IMG/VR virus record: IMGVR_UViG_3300025543_000243
Location: 1 to 22,389 of that record
Direction: 5' to 3' (one strand)
DNA: 22,389 nt
From: a virus
Shown here: positions 4,213 to 21,335 of the stretch, one piece after another
Position numbering within the stretch: the first letter of the stretch is position 1
How the letters are laid out: each line of letters starts with the position of its first letter
The notes under the pieces: model-generated
Seen by the model: only the letters and a program-made list of their open reading frames with translations
Told to the model about the DNA's origin: nothing
The model's database searches: none
Program-made: the position numbers and the translations under genes

Positions 4213-4934
4213 TGGCTTCTGAGGCAATCAATTCTTATGGGATGACTGTTGGAACAGCGACCACAACTATTGTGGGGATGTCTGCTGATGCACAATATGT
4301 GATTATTCAGAATCAGGAACCGTCATCGGACACACTTGATTATGCGCGTGACGGTCATCAGTATTTTGTGTTTCAAACATTTACGATTTCTGCTCTTGGG
4401 ACAGTCAATTTTGCTGTGGCTACTGGGGCTGGTGGCTTACAGGTGGACTATTTTGAAACTACTTCAACGGTTGAGAATGTTTCTACTTATCTAATTGAGG
4501 GGGCAACAGTGGTCACAACTGGTGCCGCGATTCCTGCCTACAATTTGAATAGGAATGTTTCGGATACGGTTTCGGCTGTGTTCAAAGCTGCCACGAGTGT
4601 CACTGGTGGAACGGTTGTTGCACAGGAGTTCATTACTGCGGATAAGAAGGCTGCCGGTGGCGGTAAGACTTCTGGGCAGATTTACACTTTGAAACCATCT
4701 AACGATTATGCTTTGCGTTTCGTAAATGAGGGGAATCAGGAAACTAAAATCTTCTACCAGTTGGGTTTCGTTGAGGACTTCAATGGTAATAATGATGTTT
4801 GGTTGGGTGGATCTGTGGGTTCGGGTTTGCGTTTGCGTGGCGGTCAGACTGTACACCTGCCAATGATTCAAGGGCAGACTCTCTCTGCTGTGGCAAGCCA
4901 GAATGTTCAAATCGCTGTTTTGAGGCAGGACTAA
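4212..4934 (+). CDS. Putative virion protein between portal and protease
   Basis: A 240-aa protein I do not recognise as a named family. It is rich in Thr, Val, Ala and Gly with alternating beta-strand-like stretches, few charged residues and no catalytic motif or signal peptide. It could be two similar beta domains (about 1-100 and 105-240), with a lysine/glycine stretch KKAAGGGK in the second. Position inside the head-assembly operon and composition suggest a structural role such as a capsid decoration or head-fibre protein. It overlaps its neighbours by 1 nt on each side (TAATG at both ends). Virion status is inferred from context. Confidence 0.6.
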   Translation: MASEAINSYGMTVGTATTTIVGMSADAQYVIIQNQEPSSDTLDYARDGHQYFVFQTFTISALGTVNFAVATGAGGLQVDYFETTSTVENVSTYLIEGATVVTTGAAIPAYNLNRNVSDTVSAVFKAATSVTGGTVVAQEFITADKKAAGGGKTSGQIYTLKPSNDYALRFVNEGNQETKIFYQLGFVEDFNGNNDVWLGGSVGSGLRLRGGQTVHLPMIQGQTLSAVASQNVQIAVLRQD

Positions 4935-6589
4935 TGCCGTATTACATTACTGACCAGAACCCTGAGTGTGAGGGTTGGGCTACCGTGAAAGAGGATGGGG
5001 AGTTGCTTGCTTGCCATGCCACGAAACAGGATGCTATTGATCAGGGTGTGGCGGTTGCTTTAGCTGAGGACAGCACGTTCGAGGGGGAACGGTCTGAGCA
5101 ACGCCTTGACTCTGGGCCTCCTGCCGTCATTGTGGATATTGATGGCACGTTGCTTTTCAATGATGGTGTGAATGAGCGCCTGGTGCGCTATTTGGACAGT
5201 TTTGATGACACTGAGATTATTGTGCTCACTGCTCGCGTTGAAACTGATCGCTCGACAACACTTGATGAGCTTGAGGCTGCTGGTGTGGACTATGACCAGC
5301 TGATTATGAAGCCTGATGCTGACCTGGATTCCGCCGATTTCAAAGAGGGTGAAGCTGTCAGGCTTTTGGAAACTTACAACGTGATGGTAGCTATCGATAA
5401 TGACCCTGATAACAGGGAACGGTTCAGGGCGCTTGGCATTACCGCTTTGGACACTGATGAGGTGCCAGATGTTGCCGATCAGCGGGAGATTCGACAGGTT
5501 GATTTGACTCCACCAGCATATATGCGCGCTAGTGCCCGTAGAGGCTTGGCGTGGCATGAGGCTGGACTATCCGGTGACGGTTTGACGCCAGCAACGGTGT
5601 CGGAGGCTCGCGCGATGGCTGACGGCAATATGACCGCTGATAAATGGGTGAGAGTTCGCGCTTTCATTGCAAGACATTTAGTTGATTTAGATGCGCCCGC
5701 TGCTTCTCCTAGTGACCCTGGATTCCCCAGTGCCGGTGTTGTTGCGATTGCTTTATGGGGTGGCGGTAGTTCAAAACGGTCAGCACAACGAGCTTTAGAT
5801 TACGCGGATGGTGTGATTGGTAGAATAGAGGCAGAGAATGAAGGCCGAGCTAAGGGGCAAGCATTGAGCAAGATGGAAACTCGCATTTTTGAGGTTGATG
5901 GTTTTGAGGTACGCGAGGATGCTGCCGGTATGCACCTTGAAGGGTACGCGGCGCTTTTCAACTCTCGTTCTGAGAACCTGGGCGGATTTACTGAAACTAT
6001 TCAGCCTGGTGCTTTCCGCGCTTCCCTGCGTGCCCGCAACGACATCAAAATGTTGTGGAATCATGACAGTGGCGCAGTCCTCGGGAGCACTAGAAGTGGC
6101 ACTCTCACACTGACCGAGGATGATCGCGGGTTGCGAGTGTCAGCCATTTTGCCAAACACTTCGCATGGGCGTGACGCTCGGGAGTTAGTTGCGCGTGGCG
6201 ATATTTCAGCTTTTTCTTTTGGTTTCTCTATGCCTGCTCGTGGCGGGGATCAGTGGAACGGTGAAGGAACCGAGCGCGTACTGAAGTCAGTGCGGTTGCA
6301 TGAAGTTTCGTTAGTTGCTTTCCCTGCGTATCCTGAAACTGCGGGGACTGCTACCGTTCGCGGTTTGGATAAGGTTGCCAAGCGTGCGCAGGTGGATGCA
6401 GATTCTTTAGCTGACGCTTTGTTGAAGATTGAGAACGGCGAGGACATTACTTCTGATGACCGCACATTGTTGCAGTCTGTGATCAATGAGCTGGCTCCGG
6501 AACCTGAAGCTAAAGATGCAGGGTTAGAAAGCGGGTTGGAGATGCTTGCGTTGAAGAAGAAAAAACTACAAATACTGATGGGAAGCTAA
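4934..6589 (+). CDS. Multidomain prohead protease (S78) with HAD phosphatase-like domain
   Basis: A 551-aa protein with four parts. (1) Residues 1-45 are a short N-terminal module (GWATVKEDGELLACH) seen on other actinophage proteases. (2) Residues 63-178 are a HAD-like domain with D68 and D70 in VDIDGT, T99 in VLTAR, K137 or a nearby lysine, and DNDPDN (155-160). (3) Residues 189-300 form a helical module (PPAYMRASARRGLAWHEAG, then LWGGGSSKRSAQRALDYAD) recurrent in actinophage structural proteins. (4) Residues 313-476 are an HK97-type S78 prohead protease with H377 in WNHD, a serine in DISAFSFGF (S425 or S428) and E457 in LHEVSL. The protease matures the capsid by removing the delta domain of the major capsid protein. 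The reading frame is open back to 4799, but ATG 4934 is chosen because it overlaps the previous stop (TAATG). An internal SD plus TTG start at 5864 could give the protease alone. Confidence 0.88.
   Translation: MPYYITDQNPECEGWATVKEDGELLACHATKQDAIDQGVAVALAEDSTFEGERSEQRLDSGPPAVIVDIDGTLLFNDGVNERLVRYLDSFDDTEIIVLTARVETDRSTTLDELEAAGVDYDQLIMKPDADLDSADFKEGEAVRLLETYNVMVAIDNDPDNRERFRALGITALDTDEVPDVADQREIRQVDLTPPAYMRASARRGLAWHEAGLSGDGLTPATVSEARAMADGNMTADKWVRVRAFIARHLVDLDAPAASPSDPGFPSAGVVAIALWGGGSSKRSAQRALDYADGVIGRIEAENEGRAKGQALSKMETRIFEVDGFEVREDAAGMHLEGYAALFNSRSENLGGFTETIQPGAFRASLRARNDIKMLWNHDSGAVLGSTRSGTLTLTEDDRGLRVSAILPNTSHGRDARELVARGDISAFSFGFSMPARGGDQWNGEGTERVLKSVRLHEVSLVAFPAYPETAGTATVRGLDKVAKRAQVDADSLADALLKIENGEDITSDDRTLLQSVINELAPEPEAKDAGLESGLEMLALKKKKLQILMGS
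5852..5866 (+). promoter_or_regulatory. Possible internal ribosome binding site and TTG start for the protease domain
   Basis: Within the protease gene, AAGGGG (5852-5857) lies 6 nt before an in-frame TTG (5864-5866). Translation there would begin MSKMETRIFEV, exactly at the N-terminal edge of the S78 domain. An in-frame ATG follows at 5873. A -10-like GGTAGAAT sits upstream at 5819-5826. This is a prediction from spacing and domain boundary only. Confidence 0.4.
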
Positions 6590-7313: not shown

Positions 7314-8444
7314 ATGTCCGAGTTTGTTAAGCGCCAGCAGGAGCTTAAGGCAAACCTGACCATGCAGATCCGCGAAGTCATTGACGGTGCTGAATCTGAG
7401 GGTCGTGGCCTTGATGCTGCTGAGCTACAAAAAATTGACCGCATTGAAGCTGATATTGATTCTGCCGCACGCAGCATTGAAACAGCTTCCAAGAACGAAG
7501 AACGAGCAGCTGAAGTTGCTTTGGCTTCTCGCGGTTTTGAAGTTATTGAAGAAGCTCGCGGAGATGTTGAAGTATTCCGCTCAATGGCTCGTGGTGAGAT
7601 TCGTTCGCACACTTTCGCTGCTTCTGAAAGCCGCGCACTTGTTGCTTCGGCTAACACTGTTCCTGTCAACTTCCTTGACCGCGTTTATGCGCTGGCTAAG
7701 CTTGTTGGCCCTTACCTTGAAACTTCTGAGGTATTCACCAGGGACAACGGTGCAGATTTGCGTATCCCCGTTATGTCGGGTTACAGCACTGCTTCTGAAA
7801 CCACTGAAGGTTCGGCAATTTCCGAATCTAACCCAACTTATACCTCCATTCTTATCAACCCAGCTAAGCAGGCTTTCATCAGCCAGTTGAGCAACGAGTT
7901 GGTAATGGATGCCGGTTTTGACGTAGAGGCTAACCTTAGCGAGCAGGCCGGTATCGCAATCGGAACCCGCGCAAATGCGCTGATCCACACTGCTGTTACC
8001 GCTGTTGCTGGCTCTGGTGTTACCGCTGGAACCACTAACGCCTTCACCGCCGATGACCTCATTTCGCTGGCCTACTCGGTTGACGGAATGGCACGCATGC
8101 TGCCTGGTGCTGGCTACATGGCTAACACTTCGACTGTTGGTGCAATCCGGCGTTTGAAGGATGGAAATGGATCATATGTACTGAATCCAGTTGTCGGTGG
8201 GCCCGATACTATCCTTGGAATGCCAATCTACGAGAACCCTGCTGTGGCTGACATTGCTACCGGCGCAAAGGCAGTGTTGTTCGGACACTGGCCTTCTGTG
8301 AAGGTTGCTACGACTGGCCTCGAGGTGTCTGTTTCGACTGACGCTTACTTCGCCAACGATGTCACAGGTTACCGCTTCGTTTATCGCATTGGTGCTGGCG
8401 TTGCTAATGGCGCAGCCCACATCAAGTACTTGGCTCTTGCATAA
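7314..8444 (+). CDS. Major capsid protein (HK97 fold)
   Basis: A 376-aa protein. The first ~95 residues are highly charged and helical (coiled-coil-like), as expected for the delta/scaffolding domain removed by the prohead protease. The remainder has HK97-fold hallmarks: VPVNFLDRVYALAK, a PVMSGYSTASETTEG arm/E-loop region, a long spine-helix region after SQLSNELVMDAG, and the P-domain ending in GYRFVYRIGAGV. Cleavage probably falls around residues 95-110, by analogy only. A strong Shine-Dalgarno AAGGAG (7302-7307) is 6 nt before the ATG. The gene is bracketed by terminators, so it forms a monocistronic, highly expressed unit. Confidence 0.93.
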   Translation: MSEFVKRQQELKANLTMQIREVIDGAESEGRGLDAAELQKIDRIEADIDSAARSIETASKNEERAAEVALASRGFEVIEEARGDVEVFRSMARGEIRSHTFAASESRALVASANTVPVNFLDRVYALAKLVGPYLETSEVFTRDNGADLRIPVMSGYSTASETTEGSAISESNPTYTSILINPAKQAFISQLSNELVMDAGFDVEANLSEQAGIAIGTRANALIHTAVTAVAGSGVTAGTTNAFTADDLISLAYSVDGMARMLPGAGYMANTSTVGAIRRLKDGNGSYVLNPVVGGPDTILGMPIYENPAVADIATGAKAVLFGHWPSVKVATTGLEVSVSTDAYFANDVTGYRFVYRIGAGVANGAAHIKYLALA

Positions 8445-8467
8445 GGTCTAAGTTCATAGGCTGAAAG

Positions 8468-8503
8468 CCCTCGCTGTGTTGTAGGTTTCACAGCGGGGGT
8501 TTT
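8468..8503 (+). terminator. Rho-independent terminator after the capsid gene
   Basis: CCCTCGCTGTG (8468-8478) pairs with CACAGCGGGGG (8489-8499) over 11 bp with one G-U pair, followed by TTTT. The stem base matches that of the terminator before the capsid gene (both AGCCCTCGC...GCGGGGGTTTTC). Confidence 0.88.
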
Positions 8504-8506
8504 CGC

Positions 8507-8512
8507 TATTAT
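8507..8512 (+). promoter_or_regulatory. Probable leaderless promoter for the GT4 gene
   Basis: TATTAT (8507-8512) lies 6 nt before the ATG at 8519, directly after the capsid terminator tail. No Shine-Dalgarno is positioned for this ATG; only a G-run touching the start codon is seen. A -35 would overlap the terminator stem (GGTTTC at 8484-8489, weak). Promoter and terminator would share DNA. Confidence 0.45.
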
Positions 8513-8518
8513 GGGGGC

Positions 8519-9724
8519 ATGTCTACAGAGAAACTAAATGGTCTTATTGCTTTAGCATCGAACTCTCCTGGAGCGCCAACGGGGTATGGACAGCAGGCGG
8601 AACACTTGGTCAACAGTTTGGTCCAGCATGGTATCAAGACCGCCATTTTGTCTAACTATGGTCTTGAGGGTGGAATGTCTACCTATAAGACAAAACATGG
8701 CGATGCGGCGCACTATCCGCGCGGTGTGACACCTTATTCGGCGGATGTGTTTACTCCTTGGTTCAATCATTTCAGCGCCCAACATCCTGGTGTTCCTGGC
8801 GCAATCATGACTCTTTATGATGTGTGGGTTTACAACGCATGGAAGGATGACATCCCTGTCATTTCGTGGGTGCCTCTGGATCATGTGACGATGCCTCCAA
8901 TGGTTGCTTCTTTTCTGAAGCGCGACAATGTGACTCCTGTTGCGATGTCACCGTTTGGGCAACGACAAATGGAGGCTGTTGGTATTGATAGCACTTATGT
9001 CCCTCACGCTATCGACACAAAGGTCTATCAGAAGACACTGAAGATTGATAGGGGTGATGGGGAGAAGGTTCCCACGCGAGAGTTTATGGGTATTCCGGAG
9101 GATACGTTCCTGGTGGGTATGGTGGCAGCGAATAAGGCTAATGGGATTATCCATCGCAAGGCTTATGGCGAAAATCTGCTGTCGTTTGCCATGTTTCATG
9201 AAAAGTTCCCTAACTCTCACTTGTATATTCATGCTGACCCGTCACCGAGCACCGGCGGGTTTGATTTGAAAGTATTATTGAAAGCTTCGGGTGTAAAACC
9301 GGATTCTGTGACTATTGCCAATAGTGATAAGTTGCGCACTGGTTATTCGCGTGAGGAGTTAGCAGCGCTGTACACAGCTTTTGATGTGCTTTTAGCAACC
9401 TCATATGGAGAAGGCTTCGGTGTGCCCACTATGGAGGCACAGGCCTGTGGCACAAGGATTATTGGTTCAGGGTGGGCCGCAACACTAGATCTAGTGTCTG
9501 ATGATGGCTGGTTATGCGAGGGCTCCGCATTTTGGGATGAACCGCAAAAAGCCTTTTTTCAGATTCCTCAGATTGGTTCGATTGTTGCAGCTTTGGAGCA
9601 GGCGTACAACGCTGAGCGCGGATATTCTGCGACTGCTCGCAACTTTGCCCTGGACTTCGACATTCCGAAGGTCTTTGACAAGTATTGGATGCCTTTTTTG
9701 AGAGGATACTTCGGTGCTCCTTGA
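8519..9724 (+). CDS. Glycosyltransferase, GT-B fold, GT4-like
   Basis: A 401-aa retaining-type glycosyltransferase. The N-terminal Rossmann domain opens with a glycine-rich loop SPGAPTGYGQQAEHLVNSL (16-34). The C-terminal nucleotide-sugar domain carries the GT4 E-x7-E motif (E298 and E306 in SYGEGFGVPTMEAQACG). Such enzymes transfer a sugar from a nucleotide-sugar donor; donor and acceptor cannot be read from the sequence. There is no signal peptide or membrane helix, so it acts in the cytoplasm. It is the first of three consecutive sugar-transfer genes between the capsid and head-tail adaptor genes, and its end overlaps the next start by 11 nt. Glycosylation of a virion protein is the simplest role from context, but modification of host surface glycans is possible. 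Confidence 0.85.
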   Translation: MSTEKLNGLIALASNSPGAPTGYGQQAEHLVNSLVQHGIKTAILSNYGLEGGMSTYKTKHGDAAHYPRGVTPYSADVFTPWFNHFSAQHPGVPGAIMTLYDVWVYNAWKDDIPVISWVPLDHVTMPPMVASFLKRDNVTPVAMSPFGQRQMEAVGIDSTYVPHAIDTKVYQKTLKIDRGDGEKVPTREFMGIPEDTFLVGMVAANKANGIIHRKAYGENLLSFAMFHEKFPNSHLYIHADPSPSTGGFDLKVLLKASGVKPDSVTIANSDKLRTGYSREELAALYTAFDVLLATSYGEGFGVPTMEAQACGTRIIGSGWAATLDLVSDDGWLCEGSAFWDEPQKAFFQIPQIGSIVAALEQAYNAERGYSATARNFALDFDIPKVFDKYWMPFLRGYFGAP

Positions 9725-10346
9725 GGAACTGCGCGGCAGGCATGAGGGTGAAACTATTTGGGTGCTTGGCTCCGGCCCATCACTGAACTTTATTGATCCG
9801 AGTTTCTTTGCCGATAAGACTGTGGTGAGTACTAACTTCAGTGCAAACACTATCGGGGTAACACCTGAGTACATGTTTAGTCATTATCATTCTGTTTCGC
9901 AGAAAATGATGGAGCACTCTGGAACGGTTGTCACTTTGGGTTGCGACACTGTGAGTCAACAGGCTTGGCAGGGCGAGAAGCCTAACAATCTTTGCCTGGT
10001 GGAATTGGACAACTATCAGCCACCTGGATCTAACTGGAATCCGCTAACATCACACAAACCTGGGACTGGAACGCTCGCATACGGTTCTAGCAGCTTGCAT
10101 GGCGCAATGCACTTAGCAGCACACCTGGGTGCTTCTCACCTAATGCTCGCGGGCGCAGACTGTGGCACTCTTGATGGTGAGCATAGGGTGAAGGGCTACC
10201 CTGATGGTCACAAACTCTGGGAGCTGTACAACAGGCACCATAAGCTGATGAAGGATTATCTGCAGCAGGAATATGGCGTAACAACCTATTCACTCAATCC
10301 CTTCATCAACTTGAACCTCGAGGGGCACACTTTTGGTGGGGTGTGA
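9714..10346 (+). CDS. MptE/DUF115-like Rossmann protein, putative sugar transferase
   Basis: A 210-aa protein. An N-terminal nucleotide-binding loop WVLGSGPSL (16-24) is followed by a segment of the form PEYMFSHYHS. A conserved GTGTLAYGSSSLHGAMHLAAHLGA helix region leads into LMLAGADCG (143-151). This pattern matches the DUF115/MptE-like family, whose fold is related to GT42-type sialyltransferases and to flagellin glycosylation accessory factors. The start is a GTG at 9714 with AGAGGA 7 nt upstream, overlapping the GT4 gene. Its neighbours on both sides are glycosyltransferases, which favours a sugar-transfer role over pterin metabolism. Exact activity unknown. Confidence 0.65.
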   Translation: MLLEELRGRHEGETIWVLGSGPSLNFIDPSFFADKTVVSTNFSANTIGVTPEYMFSHYHSVSQKMMEHSGTVVTLGCDTVSQQAWQGEKPNNLCLVELDNYQPPGSNWNPLTSHKPGTGTLAYGSSSLHGAMHLAAHLGASHLMLAGADCGTLDGEHRVKGYPDGHKLWELYNRHHKLMKDYLQQEYGVTTYSLNPFINLNLEGHTFGGV

Positions 10347-11014
10347 TGCTTGAGAACCTGATCGTGCCGGTGCTGAACCGTTATGACCTGCTAGAGCGCA
10401 TGATTGCCAGCATCGACTACCCAATCAAGCATTTGCTAATCATTGACAACGGTGCGAGCGCTGTGCTGGAAGATATTGATGTTGATGTCCCCGATGTGGT
10501 CGAGATGACTACTTATTTGCCTATGCCTGCAAATCTTGGGGTTGCGGCGTCATGGAATCTGGGCATCAAATCGTTTCCGTACGATAATCGCTGGTTTTTT
10601 GCCTCCAACGATGTGGTGTTTGGCCCAGGTGCCCTTGAGAGGCTCTCAGAGGCCCGTAGCGAGGATATAACCCTTTGCGGGCTGGCACCTTTCTGGCAGG
10701 TCTTTTCGCTCGGCTACAAGGCCATTCAGAGGGTGGGTTTGGCTGACGAAGGATTTTTTCCAGCATATTTTGAAGATAACGATCTTGAGCGCAGGGCTGA
10801 CCATGCAGGTGTGACTGTTCGGAAAATTGATATGGATGTTGCGCATGACAACAGTTCCACGCTGAGGTCTGATTCACATTTTGTGAGAAGGAACTCAGAC
10901 ACATTTTTGAACAACCGCGACTATTATGCGAACAAATGTTCGACTAACGATTTCACTGCTGGCGGTTGGTCTGTGGAGCGCCGCAGACTGAACGGCTGGG
11001 AGGCCAACCGGTAG
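10346..11014 (+). CDS. Glycosyltransferase, GT-A fold, GT2-like
   Basis: A 222-aa protein. It has the GT2 opening (VPVLNRYDLLERMIASI, then LLIIDNGA), the NLGVAASWNLGI segment typical of the family (63-74), a DxD-like position occupied by SNDV (87-90), and FFPAYFEDNDLERR (137-150), which matches the acceptor-side ED motif of inverting GT2 enzymes. It lacks a membrane anchor and is short, essentially the catalytic core. ATG 10346 overlaps the previous TGA; GTG 10343, one codon earlier, is equally possible. It is the last gene of the sugar module. Its TAG stop lies inside a GGTAGAAT promoter-like motif just before the adaptor gene. Confidence 0.8.
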   Translation: MLENLIVPVLNRYDLLERMIASIDYPIKHLLIIDNGASAVLEDIDVDVPDVVEMTTYLPMPANLGVAASWNLGIKSFPYDNRWFFASNDVVFGPGALERLSEARSEDITLCGLAPFWQVFSLGYKAIQRVGLADEGFFPAYFEDNDLERRADHAGVTVRKIDMDVAHDNSSTLRSDSHFVRRNSDTFLNNRDYYANKCSTNDFTAGGWSVERRRLNGWEANR

Positions 11015-11035
11015 AATGGAATCTGGAGGCTTTTC

Positions 11036-11656
11036 ATGGCAATGACCAACCCTTACTGTTCGCTGGCGGATATAAAAGCGGCAGCTCGCATCACAGATAG
11101 CATTGACGATACGTTATTAGAGATTTCGATTGAATCCAGCTCGCGCGACATTGATGCTTATTGCGAGCGCGTGTTTTATTCATCAGGTGGTACCGCAATT
11201 TCCCGCGTGTATGTCCCCCAAGATTCTTTCGTTGTACAAACCGATGACATTATCTCTGTCACAAACATCAAGTCAGATAGCAACGGTGACGGCACCTTCG
11301 ACCAGACTTGGGCCGGAACCGATTATCAGCTGGAGCCTCTGAATGGGCTAGCCGGTGGGATTGACACACCCGCGACAAGGATTCGGGCTATAGGACAGTT
11401 TCTCTGGCCCGTGTATGAGCCTCGCAATGTTGATGCAGATCAGGCGAGCGTACAGGTCACTGGTGTATTTGGTTTCGCTTCCATTCCTATTGCTATTAGG
11501 CAAGCAACAATCCTTTCCGCTCTCAGGGCGTACAAGCGCTATGAAAGTCCTACTGGTGTCTTGGGCTTCTCAGACGTTGGAGTGGTCAGAATCGGAAGGC
11601 TAGATCCCGATGTGGAGCGCCTCGTTTCGCCTTACCGCAAAGTGAGGATGGGGTGA
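11036..11656 (+). CDS. Head-tail adaptor (connector)
   Basis: A 206-aa protein. The N-terminal YCSLADIKAAARI...DDTLLEISIESSSRDIDAYCERVF helix set and the later RAYKRYESPTG...VERLVSPYRK end match gp6/gp15-type head-tail adaptors. These form a ring under the portal after packaging. A Shine-Dalgarno GGAGG (11025-11029) lies 6 nt before the ATG at 11036; a second ATG is at 11042. It starts 21 bp after the GT2 stop. The stop overlaps the next GTG start. Confidence 0.82.
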   Translation: MAMTNPYCSLADIKAAARITDSIDDTLLEISIESSSRDIDAYCERVFYSSGGTAISRVYVPQDSFVVQTDDIISVTNIKSDSNGDGTFDQTWAGTDYQLEPLNGLAGGIDTPATRIRAIGQFLWPVYEPRNVDADQASVQVTGVFGFASIPIAIRQATILSALRAYKRYESPTGVLGFSDVGVVRIGRLDPDVERLVSPYRKVRMG

Positions 11657-12064: not shown

Positions 12065-12475
12065 GTGGCAAAGTTTGTCGCTACTAACTACAACATCAAA
12101 ATCAACGGCGTTGACTTCAGCTCTGCTATTGCCGCAGTTACGATGGATATCAGTGCAGCCGAGCAGGAAGTCACTGCCTTTGGCAACACCTTTGTTCAGC
12201 GTATTGCTGGCCTAAAGGATGCTTCGGTTTCGCTTGACTTCCACCAGGACTTCGGCGCTGCTGCTGTGGATGCTACATTGTTCCCGCTTCTGGGATCGCA
12301 GGCAACTGTGACTGTTATCCCTGCTGGTTCTGTCGTGTCGAGTACAAATCCCTCATATTCTGGGGTCTTTTTGTGCACCGAGTACAGCCCCTACAGCTCC
12401 TCGATTGGGGATTTAGCCACACTGTCAGTTTCCTGGCCCTTGGCTAACGGAACAATCACCAGAGGCACTGCGTAA
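12065..12475 (+). CDS. Major tail protein (tail tube)
   Basis: A 136-aa protein with a short beta-sandwich pattern: NIKINGVDFSSAIAAVTMDISA...VTAFGNTFVQRIAGLKDASVSLDF...LATLSVSWPLANGTITRGTA, typical of compact siphovirus tube proteins. It polymerises into hexameric rings around the tape measure. The start is GTG 12065, chosen because AAGGAG (12053-12058) lies 6 nt upstream; the frame is open further back but without a start signal. Its place just before the frameshifted chaperone genes is the standard order. Confidence 0.83.
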   Translation: MAKFVATNYNIKINGVDFSSAIAAVTMDISAAEQEVTAFGNTFVQRIAGLKDASVSLDFHQDFGAAAVDATLFPLLGSQATVTVIPAGSVVSSTNPSYSGVFLCTEYSPYSSSIGDLATLSVSWPLANGTITRGTA

Positions 12476-12909: not shown

Positions 12910-13479
12910 ATGGCGCAACAAATCAAAGCTGGCGGTCTTCCTGGGTTTGTTGTTAGTGCCGAGAATCTTCAGGTTGTTTTGAAAGAGCTGAAAGCTCTAG
13001 AACCTAGCCTTCGCAAAGAGCTTGTGGCGGAGATGAAGCGCGACCTACAACCTGTTGGCAAAAATCTATTGTCGAAGATTCCAGGCCCTGCACCTTTGAG
13101 CGGTTTTTCTTCGACAAAAGGTGAATCCCCGTATATTTGGCGAAAGCCTCGGATGGTTGTGAAGACTCCATTTGCTAAGCGCGCGAAGAAACCTGGAACT
13201 TTTCCTGTTGTGTCTATCCAATTCAATGACCGTAGACCTAACGCGGGATTGTCTATTTTGGAACTCGCGGGTAGTGCGAACATTGGAAAAGACAAGGGTG
13301 GCTTGACTCAGCGCGGGCGCAACATGATAAAGGGTCTTAACACTGCTGGCTTCACAGTAAAGAATGGCTTGGGCCGTTTTGTTATTCCTGAGTTCAAGGA
13401 GAAGCAGGCCGAGGTTACAAGAATTGCGGTGGGTATTTTGGAGAGTTACGCAGCCAAGGTGAACCGGAGGCTCAAGTGA
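12910..13479 (+). CDS. HK97 gp10-like tail protein
   Basis: A 189-aa basic protein. NLQVVLKELKALEPSLRKELVAEMKRDLQPVGKNLL followed by a Gly/Pro loop region and a C-terminal helix resembles the HK97-gp10-like family, implicated in head-tail joining or tail completion. In most phages this gene precedes the tail tube gene. Here it sits between the chaperones and the tape measure. ATG 12910 has AGAGG (12901-12905) 4 nt upstream. A TAGAAT -10-like box (12895-12900) overlaps the previous stop. The TGA stop overlaps the tape-measure GTG. Confidence 0.6.
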   Translation: MAQQIKAGGLPGFVVSAENLQVVLKELKALEPSLRKELVAEMKRDLQPVGKNLLSKIPGPAPLSGFSSTKGESPYIWRKPRMVVKTPFAKRAKKPGTFPVVSIQFNDRRPNAGLSILELAGSANIGKDKGGLTQRGRNMIKGLNTAGFTVKNGLGRFVIPEFKEKQAEVTRIAVGILESYAAKVNRRLK

Positions 13480-20914: not shown

Positions 20915-21087
20915 TTGAAGTAACAAGAGATGGGCGTGATGTTTGTGTGCGGTTGCGTGATGATGTTTGGCAACTGTCTGAGCCTGGGACACTGTGCCTC
21001 AGCTCAGCACAGGCGCAACACTTACGCCTTCACCTAAATCAGTTAGTGGATGCTGTGGAGCTCACTGATGACCATGAAGATGGCTAA
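20911..21087 (+). CDS. 58-aa hypothetical protein
   Basis: A 58-aa protein: VTRDGRDVCVRLRDDVWQLSEPGTLCLSSAQAQHLRLHLNQLVDAVEL, with an acidic tail. The beta-strand then helix pattern, with SSAQAQHLRLHLNQLVDAV, resembles small unnamed actinobacterial/actinophage proteins. AGGAG is 8 nt upstream and the ATG overlaps the previous TGA (ATGA). Its TAA overlaps the end of the leftward WhiB gene by 4 nt, so the two genes are tail to tail with no terminator between. Confidence 0.65.
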   Translation: MIEVTRDGRDVCVRLRDDVWQLSEPGTLCLSSAQAQHLRLHLNQLVDAVELTDDHEDG

Positions 21088-21335
21088 CGCTCCGATGGCA
21101 GTGTGCCAGCCCAAATCCCATAAGCCTGTTTTGTTTCGATAGCGTAGGCAAAACATTGAATACTAAGGGGACAGTCGTTACACAAAGCTTTGGCAACTCT
21201 GATCGCGTAATCTCTGGTCTGTTTGTCGGGGAAATCTTCGGGGAAAAATATCTCCGGCACAGCCTCGCATGGTGCGCCACCGTTATCAACGATGGCCTGT
21301 CCAAGTTCCCCATAGGAATGTCCCTGGTTGCTCAT
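21084..21335 (-). CDS. WhiB-family iron-sulfur transcription factor
   Basis: An 83-aa protein with the four WhiB cysteines at the canonical spacing: C23, then C52-x2-C55-x5-C61. AKALCNDCPLSIQCFAYAI is the Fe-S cluster core and is followed by GIWAG (73-77), the turn that contacts sigma factor in this family. The motif is usually GxWGG, so an Ala replaces one Gly. The C-terminal basic tail is short (TLPSER), as in phage WhiB proteins and unlike longer DNA-binding tails in hosts. WhiB proteins bind the housekeeping sigma factor of actinobacteria, so this one could redirect host or phage transcription. It is transcribed leftward, opposite to most genes here. Confidence 0.9.
   Translation of the reverse strand: MSNQGHSYGELGQAIVDNGGAPCEAVPEIFFPEDFPDKQTRDYAIRVAKALCNDCPLSIQCFAYAIETKQAYGIWAGTLPSER

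Follow-up and report, generated by a model that had tools for sequence, protein, structure and literature searches.

Three adjacent genes between the capsid and head-tail adaptor genes of an aquatic actinophage probably form a virion O-glycosylation module, in which a GT4-family glycosyltransferase would prime and its partner enzymes would extend or cap the sugar. The proposal rests on the comparison of related loci, in which one capsid residue, Ser234 here, varies with the presence of the cassette. The window, that is, the whole 22.4 kb stretch of DNA that was analysed, is an IMG/VR virus record. It is a fragment of a siphovirus-like genome, with genes for the terminase, portal, protease, HK97-type capsid, adaptor, tail terminator, major tail protein, tape measure and endolysin. 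Its virus is a phage of water-dwelling actinobacteria. The nearest annotated phage genome is that of Pontimonas phage phiPsal1 (MG835450), and two relatives of the MptE-like gene are located in a Microbacteriaceae metagenome bin; from these two observations we infer that the hosts are Microbacteriaceae.

The glycosylation of virions in the mycobacteriophages Che8, Corndog and Myrna was reportedly studied by Freeman et al. in 2023. Virion glycosylation by phage enzymes is already known, and it is documented for a few mycobacteriophages, whose own enzymes act on the capsid and the tail tube (PMC12363180). Che8, Corndog and Myrna resemble the virus of the window in being actinophages with phage-encoded glycosyltransferases (PMC11256854, PMC12363180). 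The differences are that Maravista, an F1 relative, has its glycosyltransferases near the 3′ end of the genome (PMC11256854), whereas those of the window lie behind the capsid gene, and that glycosylation is reported as found for Che8 and Corndog, while that of the window is predicted. In the literature searched, we found no description of a cassette site behind the capsid gene, of a single-domain Maf/GT42-like partner or of a predicted acceptor residue.

Gene content, signals and variability of the cassette site

The site is bordered by the gene of the major capsid protein (7314-8444, +; HK97 fold, PF05065 with E 4.8e-30, phrog_10), the proposed acceptor, and on the right by the head-tail adaptor gene (11036-11656, +; PF05135, phrog_442 with 2e-18). 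The earlier note had described GT4, MptE-like and GT2 genes in a row with overlapping ends between these borders, and the open reading frames and profile matches confirm this arrangement. The first gene (8519-9724, +) encodes the GT4-family glycosyltransferase, which matches phrog_2170 (7e-37) and PF13692 (Glyco_trans_1_4), the latter with 34.9 bits, above the curated cut-off of 27. Its E-x7-E motif, EGFGVPTME in the window, is found in 71 of 73 relatives, and a scan of bacterial genomes, sensitive to close relatives only, found no relative of this protein. The MptE-like open reading frame (9714-10346, +) overlaps GT4 by 11 bp and is itself overlapped by 4 bp by the GT2-family glycosyltransferase gene (10343-11014, +). 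GT2 matches phrog_29879 (1e-54) and PF00535 (Glycos_transf_2), the latter with 23.4 bits, a bare margin over the cut-off of 23.3. A check for DXD/ED motifs gave SND and EDNDL in the window; ED.DL is present in 44 of 55 relatives and ND/DD variants in 37 of 55.

A strong terminator hairpin lies 3′ of the capsid gene (8463-8504, +; RNA fold z -5.45), with GUAGGU in its loop. It escaped the terminator scan because the loop has 10 nt, and a hairpin is present at this place in empty and occupied relatives alike. The hairpin is followed by TATTAT (8507-8512, +), the putative -10 box of a leaderless cassette promoter, which ends 6 nt before the ATG of GT4. The sigma-70 promoter scan gave nothing above chance in the window and did not report this box, which was recognized by comparative conservation. 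A TANNNT box stands 4-9 nt, nearly always 6-7 nt, ahead of the GT4 start in 40 of 60 distinct relatives; the loci fetched later gave 52 of 60, and the regions upstream of capsid genes 0 of 72. Some misses in the first count are due to start-codon mistakes, since the box itself contains ATG. GT4 is not preceded by a Shine-Dalgarno site. Leaderless transcription is common in Actinobacteria, and the geometry from TANNNT to ATG fits it. The hairpin and the conserved box thus bear out the suggestion of a separate cassette promoter downstream of the capsid terminator. Whether the site is occupied or empty, the adaptor has a -10 box to itself, in most cases together with a Shine-Dalgarno site; in the window, upstream comparison places it at TAGAAT (11012-11017, +), overlapping the GT2 stop codon. 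As a separate observation, of 147 distinct capsid 3′ ends, 70 have the loop motif GUAGGU, mostly unpaired and between flanks of 46 different sequences. It is conserved though the stems differ widely in sequence, and an ordinary terminator needs no conserved loop. No Rfam family matched within the window.

Relatives were fetched with MptE-like, GT4 and capsid queries and later with three further capsid queries. The module is found at the same site in these relatives, with variable gene content. The interval between capsid and adaptor is found in three states: empty (84-117 bp), filled by an unrelated piece of 0.5-0.8 kb, or occupied by a cassette of 1.3-3.9 kb. The unrelated piece, seen in the empty-site relatives L038, L040, L053 and L086, carries a reverse-strand open reading frame. 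Complete cassettes consist of GT4 alone, GT4-GT2, GT4-MptE-GT2, GT4-GT2-MptE or a longer series, and GT4 comes first in every classed cassette; L268 and L277, whose first detected gene is GT2, were left out of the classes. The additional genes encode a cytidylyltransferase, an NAD-dependent epimerase, a UDP-glucose/GDP-mannose dehydrogenase, a methyltransferase, a GT17 enzyme and a second GT4, and are parts of sugar pathways.

The direct capsid-to-adaptor junction, taken in the earlier note for the usual state, is the less common one: occupied sites outnumber empty ones by 39 to 28 in the first capsid-query set and by 87 to 28 in the later loci. The empty site occurs in four capsid lineages, and the capsid tree, on an unproven root, reads more naturally as loss in these four than as insertion. 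Neither GT4 (protein and profile search) nor GT2 (profile search) was found anywhere in ten empty-site records of 8-30 kb, which are possibly incomplete, while the GT4 profile matched 14 of 14 occupied records.

In phiPsal1, the same site has the same order of capsid, GT4, a third gene, GT2 and neck protein, with identities to the window of 54% for GT4, 52% for GT2 and 47% for the capsid. The third gene differs, being a reverse-strand SAM methyltransferase gene in phiPsal1 and MptE-like in the window. A trio of GT4, GT2-like and methyltransferase genes is also present in Synechococcus phage S-CBS4 (HQ698895, 9916-12282; L151), where it comes between the portal gene and the head genes, whereas the cassette of the window follows the capsid gene.

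Fold and putative role of the MptE-like protein

The MptE-like protein matches PF01973 with an E-value of 3e-7, yet its 30.8 bits are under the curated cut-off of 34.6; the family is matched by 20 of 20 relatives. The structure model (pLDDT 89.7) comprises a single domain of 210 amino acids. In Foldseek, the solved structures that match it best are Maf (5mu5, 5e-5) and then CstII (3e-4), with further sialyltransferases after them. Structural realignment gave Z scores of 12.8 for Maf 5mu5, 12.7 for Methanocaldococcus MptE (8sd5), 10.3 for Cst-I and about 10 for CstII, over 158-178 residues. These matches support a sialyltransferase-like fold. The likeness to the GT42 sialyltransferases Cst-I and CstII is one of fold: the profile of the protein, compared by sequence with solved structures, gave nothing relevant and no significant match to a solved sialyltransferase. 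It matched phrog_4603, an alpha-2,3-sialyltransferase family, at 3e-4, and phage records gave no sequence match to the protein.

A sialic-acid-like transferase, as suggested in the earlier note, agrees with the fold, but the fold of archaeal MptE, a pterin diphosphokinase, is equally close. As Maf and MptE have nearly the same Z, a sugar transferase and a pterin kinase cannot be told apart by the fold. The protein could accordingly be read as a pterin diphosphokinase with no tie to sugars, having the same fold as Methanocaldococcus MptE/HPPK and belonging to a Pfam family of that name. This is very improbable, given that the gene belongs to glycosyltransferase cassettes, where it can precede or follow GT2, and that the Pfam family also includes Maf, a glycosyltransferase. 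Taken together with the fold, the neighbourhood favours a sugar transferase, probably of the CMP-sugar type.

Maf attaches nonulosonic acids to Ser/Thr residues of flagellin, and a resemblance to Cst-II is described for its central domain, pfam01973 (PMC11339370). Maf has the MptE/Maf_flag10 fold in common with the protein of the window, and its acceptor is a Ser/Thr of an abundant structural protein, as proposed here. However, Maf has three domains and 632 residues, while the window protein has one domain and 210 residues and is not accompanied by flagellin-related partner genes. Pontimonas salivibrio is reported to have sialic acid and KDO genes (PMC6106888), so that a CMP-sugar donor may be at hand; the phage that infects this bacterium, however, is only related to the one in the window.

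Candidate acceptor residues in capsid and tail

Should a virion protein carry the sugar, phages that lack the cassette would be free to lose the residue to which it is attached. The first scan compared 42 occupied capsids with two empty clades, E1 and E2. In both clades, four Ser/Thr columns were lost; of the remaining conserved columns, about 199, one was lost in this way (Fisher p 5e-4). A capsid tree built without the four columns rejected E1 and E2 as a single clade (AU p 3e-6). The residue prediction was fixed before new loci were fetched. In the new loci, residue 234 is Ser or Thr in 59 of 69 occupied and 0 of 14 empty capsids, and eight of these 14 form two further clades. Sites 167, 241 and 272, which had initially looked equal to 234, failed in the new loci.

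Over all 159 capsids, residue 234 is Ser or Thr in 114 of 128 occupied and 0 of 31 empty ones, the latter having Ala, Leu, Glu, Gln or Gly. Loss in each of the four empty clades is seen for residue 234 alone among the 202 conserved columns; 0.003 such columns would be expected if columns behaved alike. Among 1500 random sets of four occupied clades, any such column appeared in 45 and a Ser/Thr column in 5. A paired sign test gave three pairs in the same direction, none opposite and one equal; with four independent losses, 0.05 is out of its reach. Linkage alone is insufficient as an explanation, since adjacency predicts clade-specific capsid residues and not one same residue in four clades. 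Recombination of the loop between empty clades was rejected: its nucleotide identity, 0.57-0.74, is not consistently above that of the rest of the capsid gene. The loss in four empty clades, which held in the new loci, argues for the capsid as target of the enzymes, one of the two targets named in the earlier note.

The 14 occupied capsids without Ser/Thr234 include ten, in two lineages, that carry a shifted GGT at 235-237; one of these lineages has a GT4-only cassette and its own GT4 clade. The other four (L027, L041, L042 and L043) have neither Ser/Thr234 nor this GGT.

Ser234 (codon 8013-8015, +), the candidate O-glycosylation site, is part of the loop GSGVTAGTTNA, residues 233-243. The capsid model is of low confidence (pLDDT 59.8). 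In it, a long helix spans residues 204-231 and is followed by another at 246-253, which would place residues 234-244 behind the spine helix. The 234 loop may be exposed to the outside and may be equivalent to the G-loop of the P-domain, a contact site of decoration proteins in phage P74-26 (PMC6775164). This contact and the four unexplained occupied exceptions would be compatible with residue 234 changing for another cause, such as a decoration protein sitting on the loop in empty-site phages, with another virion part as sugar target. We hold this to be quite unlikely, as the residue lost is specifically Ser/Thr, its replacements are the five residues listed above, and the tail protein also shows a Ser/Thr loss.

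The major tail (tube) protein (12074-12475, +; phrog_4574, 9e-29) is a possible second acceptor. It has one column lost like capsid 234, again Ser/Thr; no such column was found in the adaptor, tail terminator, protease, portal or gene 12910-13479. Residue 89 (Ser89 in the window, numbered from 12074; codon 12338-12340, +) is Ser or Thr in 65 of the 74 occupied phages and in 4 of the 24 empty ones, and the signal is weak on the protein's own tree, at about 2.1 versus 0.3 pairs. The tail protein, also named as a target in the earlier note, is thus supported more weakly than the capsid. The loss is in line with the glycosylation of capsid and tail tube in mycobacteriophages (PMC12363180). Gly is found at position 89 in the tail protein of phiPsal1, a difference from the window, and in L186, L191, L192 and L196, which belong to the GT4-only lineage with GGT at capsid 235-237. 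Having Gly89 and lacking Ser/Thr234, this lineage may use another acceptor.

Alternatively, the enzymes could alter surface glycans of the host, blocking superinfection or helping to release progeny, and the link to the capsid would be coincidental. Phage glycosyltransferases are commonly interpreted in this way, as has been proposed for those of Nanopelagicales phages (PMC10202952), and P. salivibrio has many cell-wall glycosyltransferases (PMC6106888). It is nevertheless unlikely here, because the cassette is located in the head-tail gene block, because phiPsal1 is called lytic in the paper that describes it, where the phage is otherwise undiscussed (PMC6106888), and because this reading does not predict a link to one capsid Ser/Thr. 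Glycosylation of phage DNA, another option put forward for Nanopelagicales phages (PMC10202952), would leave the pattern at the capsid residue unexplained, and no gene for modified-base synthesis is annotated in phiPsal1; we regard it as extremely improbable.

Proposed order of events

For virion glycosylation, the preferred explanation, we propose the following sequence. The cassette would be expressed from its own leaderless promoter, probably late in infection. GT4 would most likely add the first sugar to the capsid Ser/Thr in the loop behind the spine helix, with Ser89 of the major tail protein as a possible further acceptor. This sugar would then be extended or capped by GT2 and the MptE/Maf/GT42-fold protein, the latter perhaps adding a nonulosonic-acid-type sugar from CMP-sugar pools of the host. 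With partner genes swapped among relatives, the glycan would differ between phages and the attachment point would stay constant; a protective effect of the glycan is conceivable. More tentatively, and as a possibility that we would not yet favour, aquatic actinophages may share an exchangeable glycan-writing locus, in which an unvarying GT4 primes one Ser/Thr of the capsid and one of the tail tube. Shuffled partners, a single-domain Maf/sialyltransferase-like enzyme among them, would build a coat that differs from strain to strain, and it would be the virion, not the host, that has a serotype system.

If the proposal is true, virion glycosylation would be common in aquatic actinophages, at one exchangeable site. 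The attachment residue would be predictable from genomes alone and hence testable on one capsid peptide, and virus particles would be made with the help of a minimal Maf-like enzyme, whose family is known from flagellin.

Two further features of the window were noticed. The prohead protease (4934-6589) has an N-terminal HAD or polynucleotide-kinase-phosphatase-like domain (PF03767, 3e-7; phrog_415, 6e-15). A small, cysteine-containing open reading frame (21084-21335, -) looks WhiB-like, by eye only, and phiPsal1 has an annotated WhiB gene.
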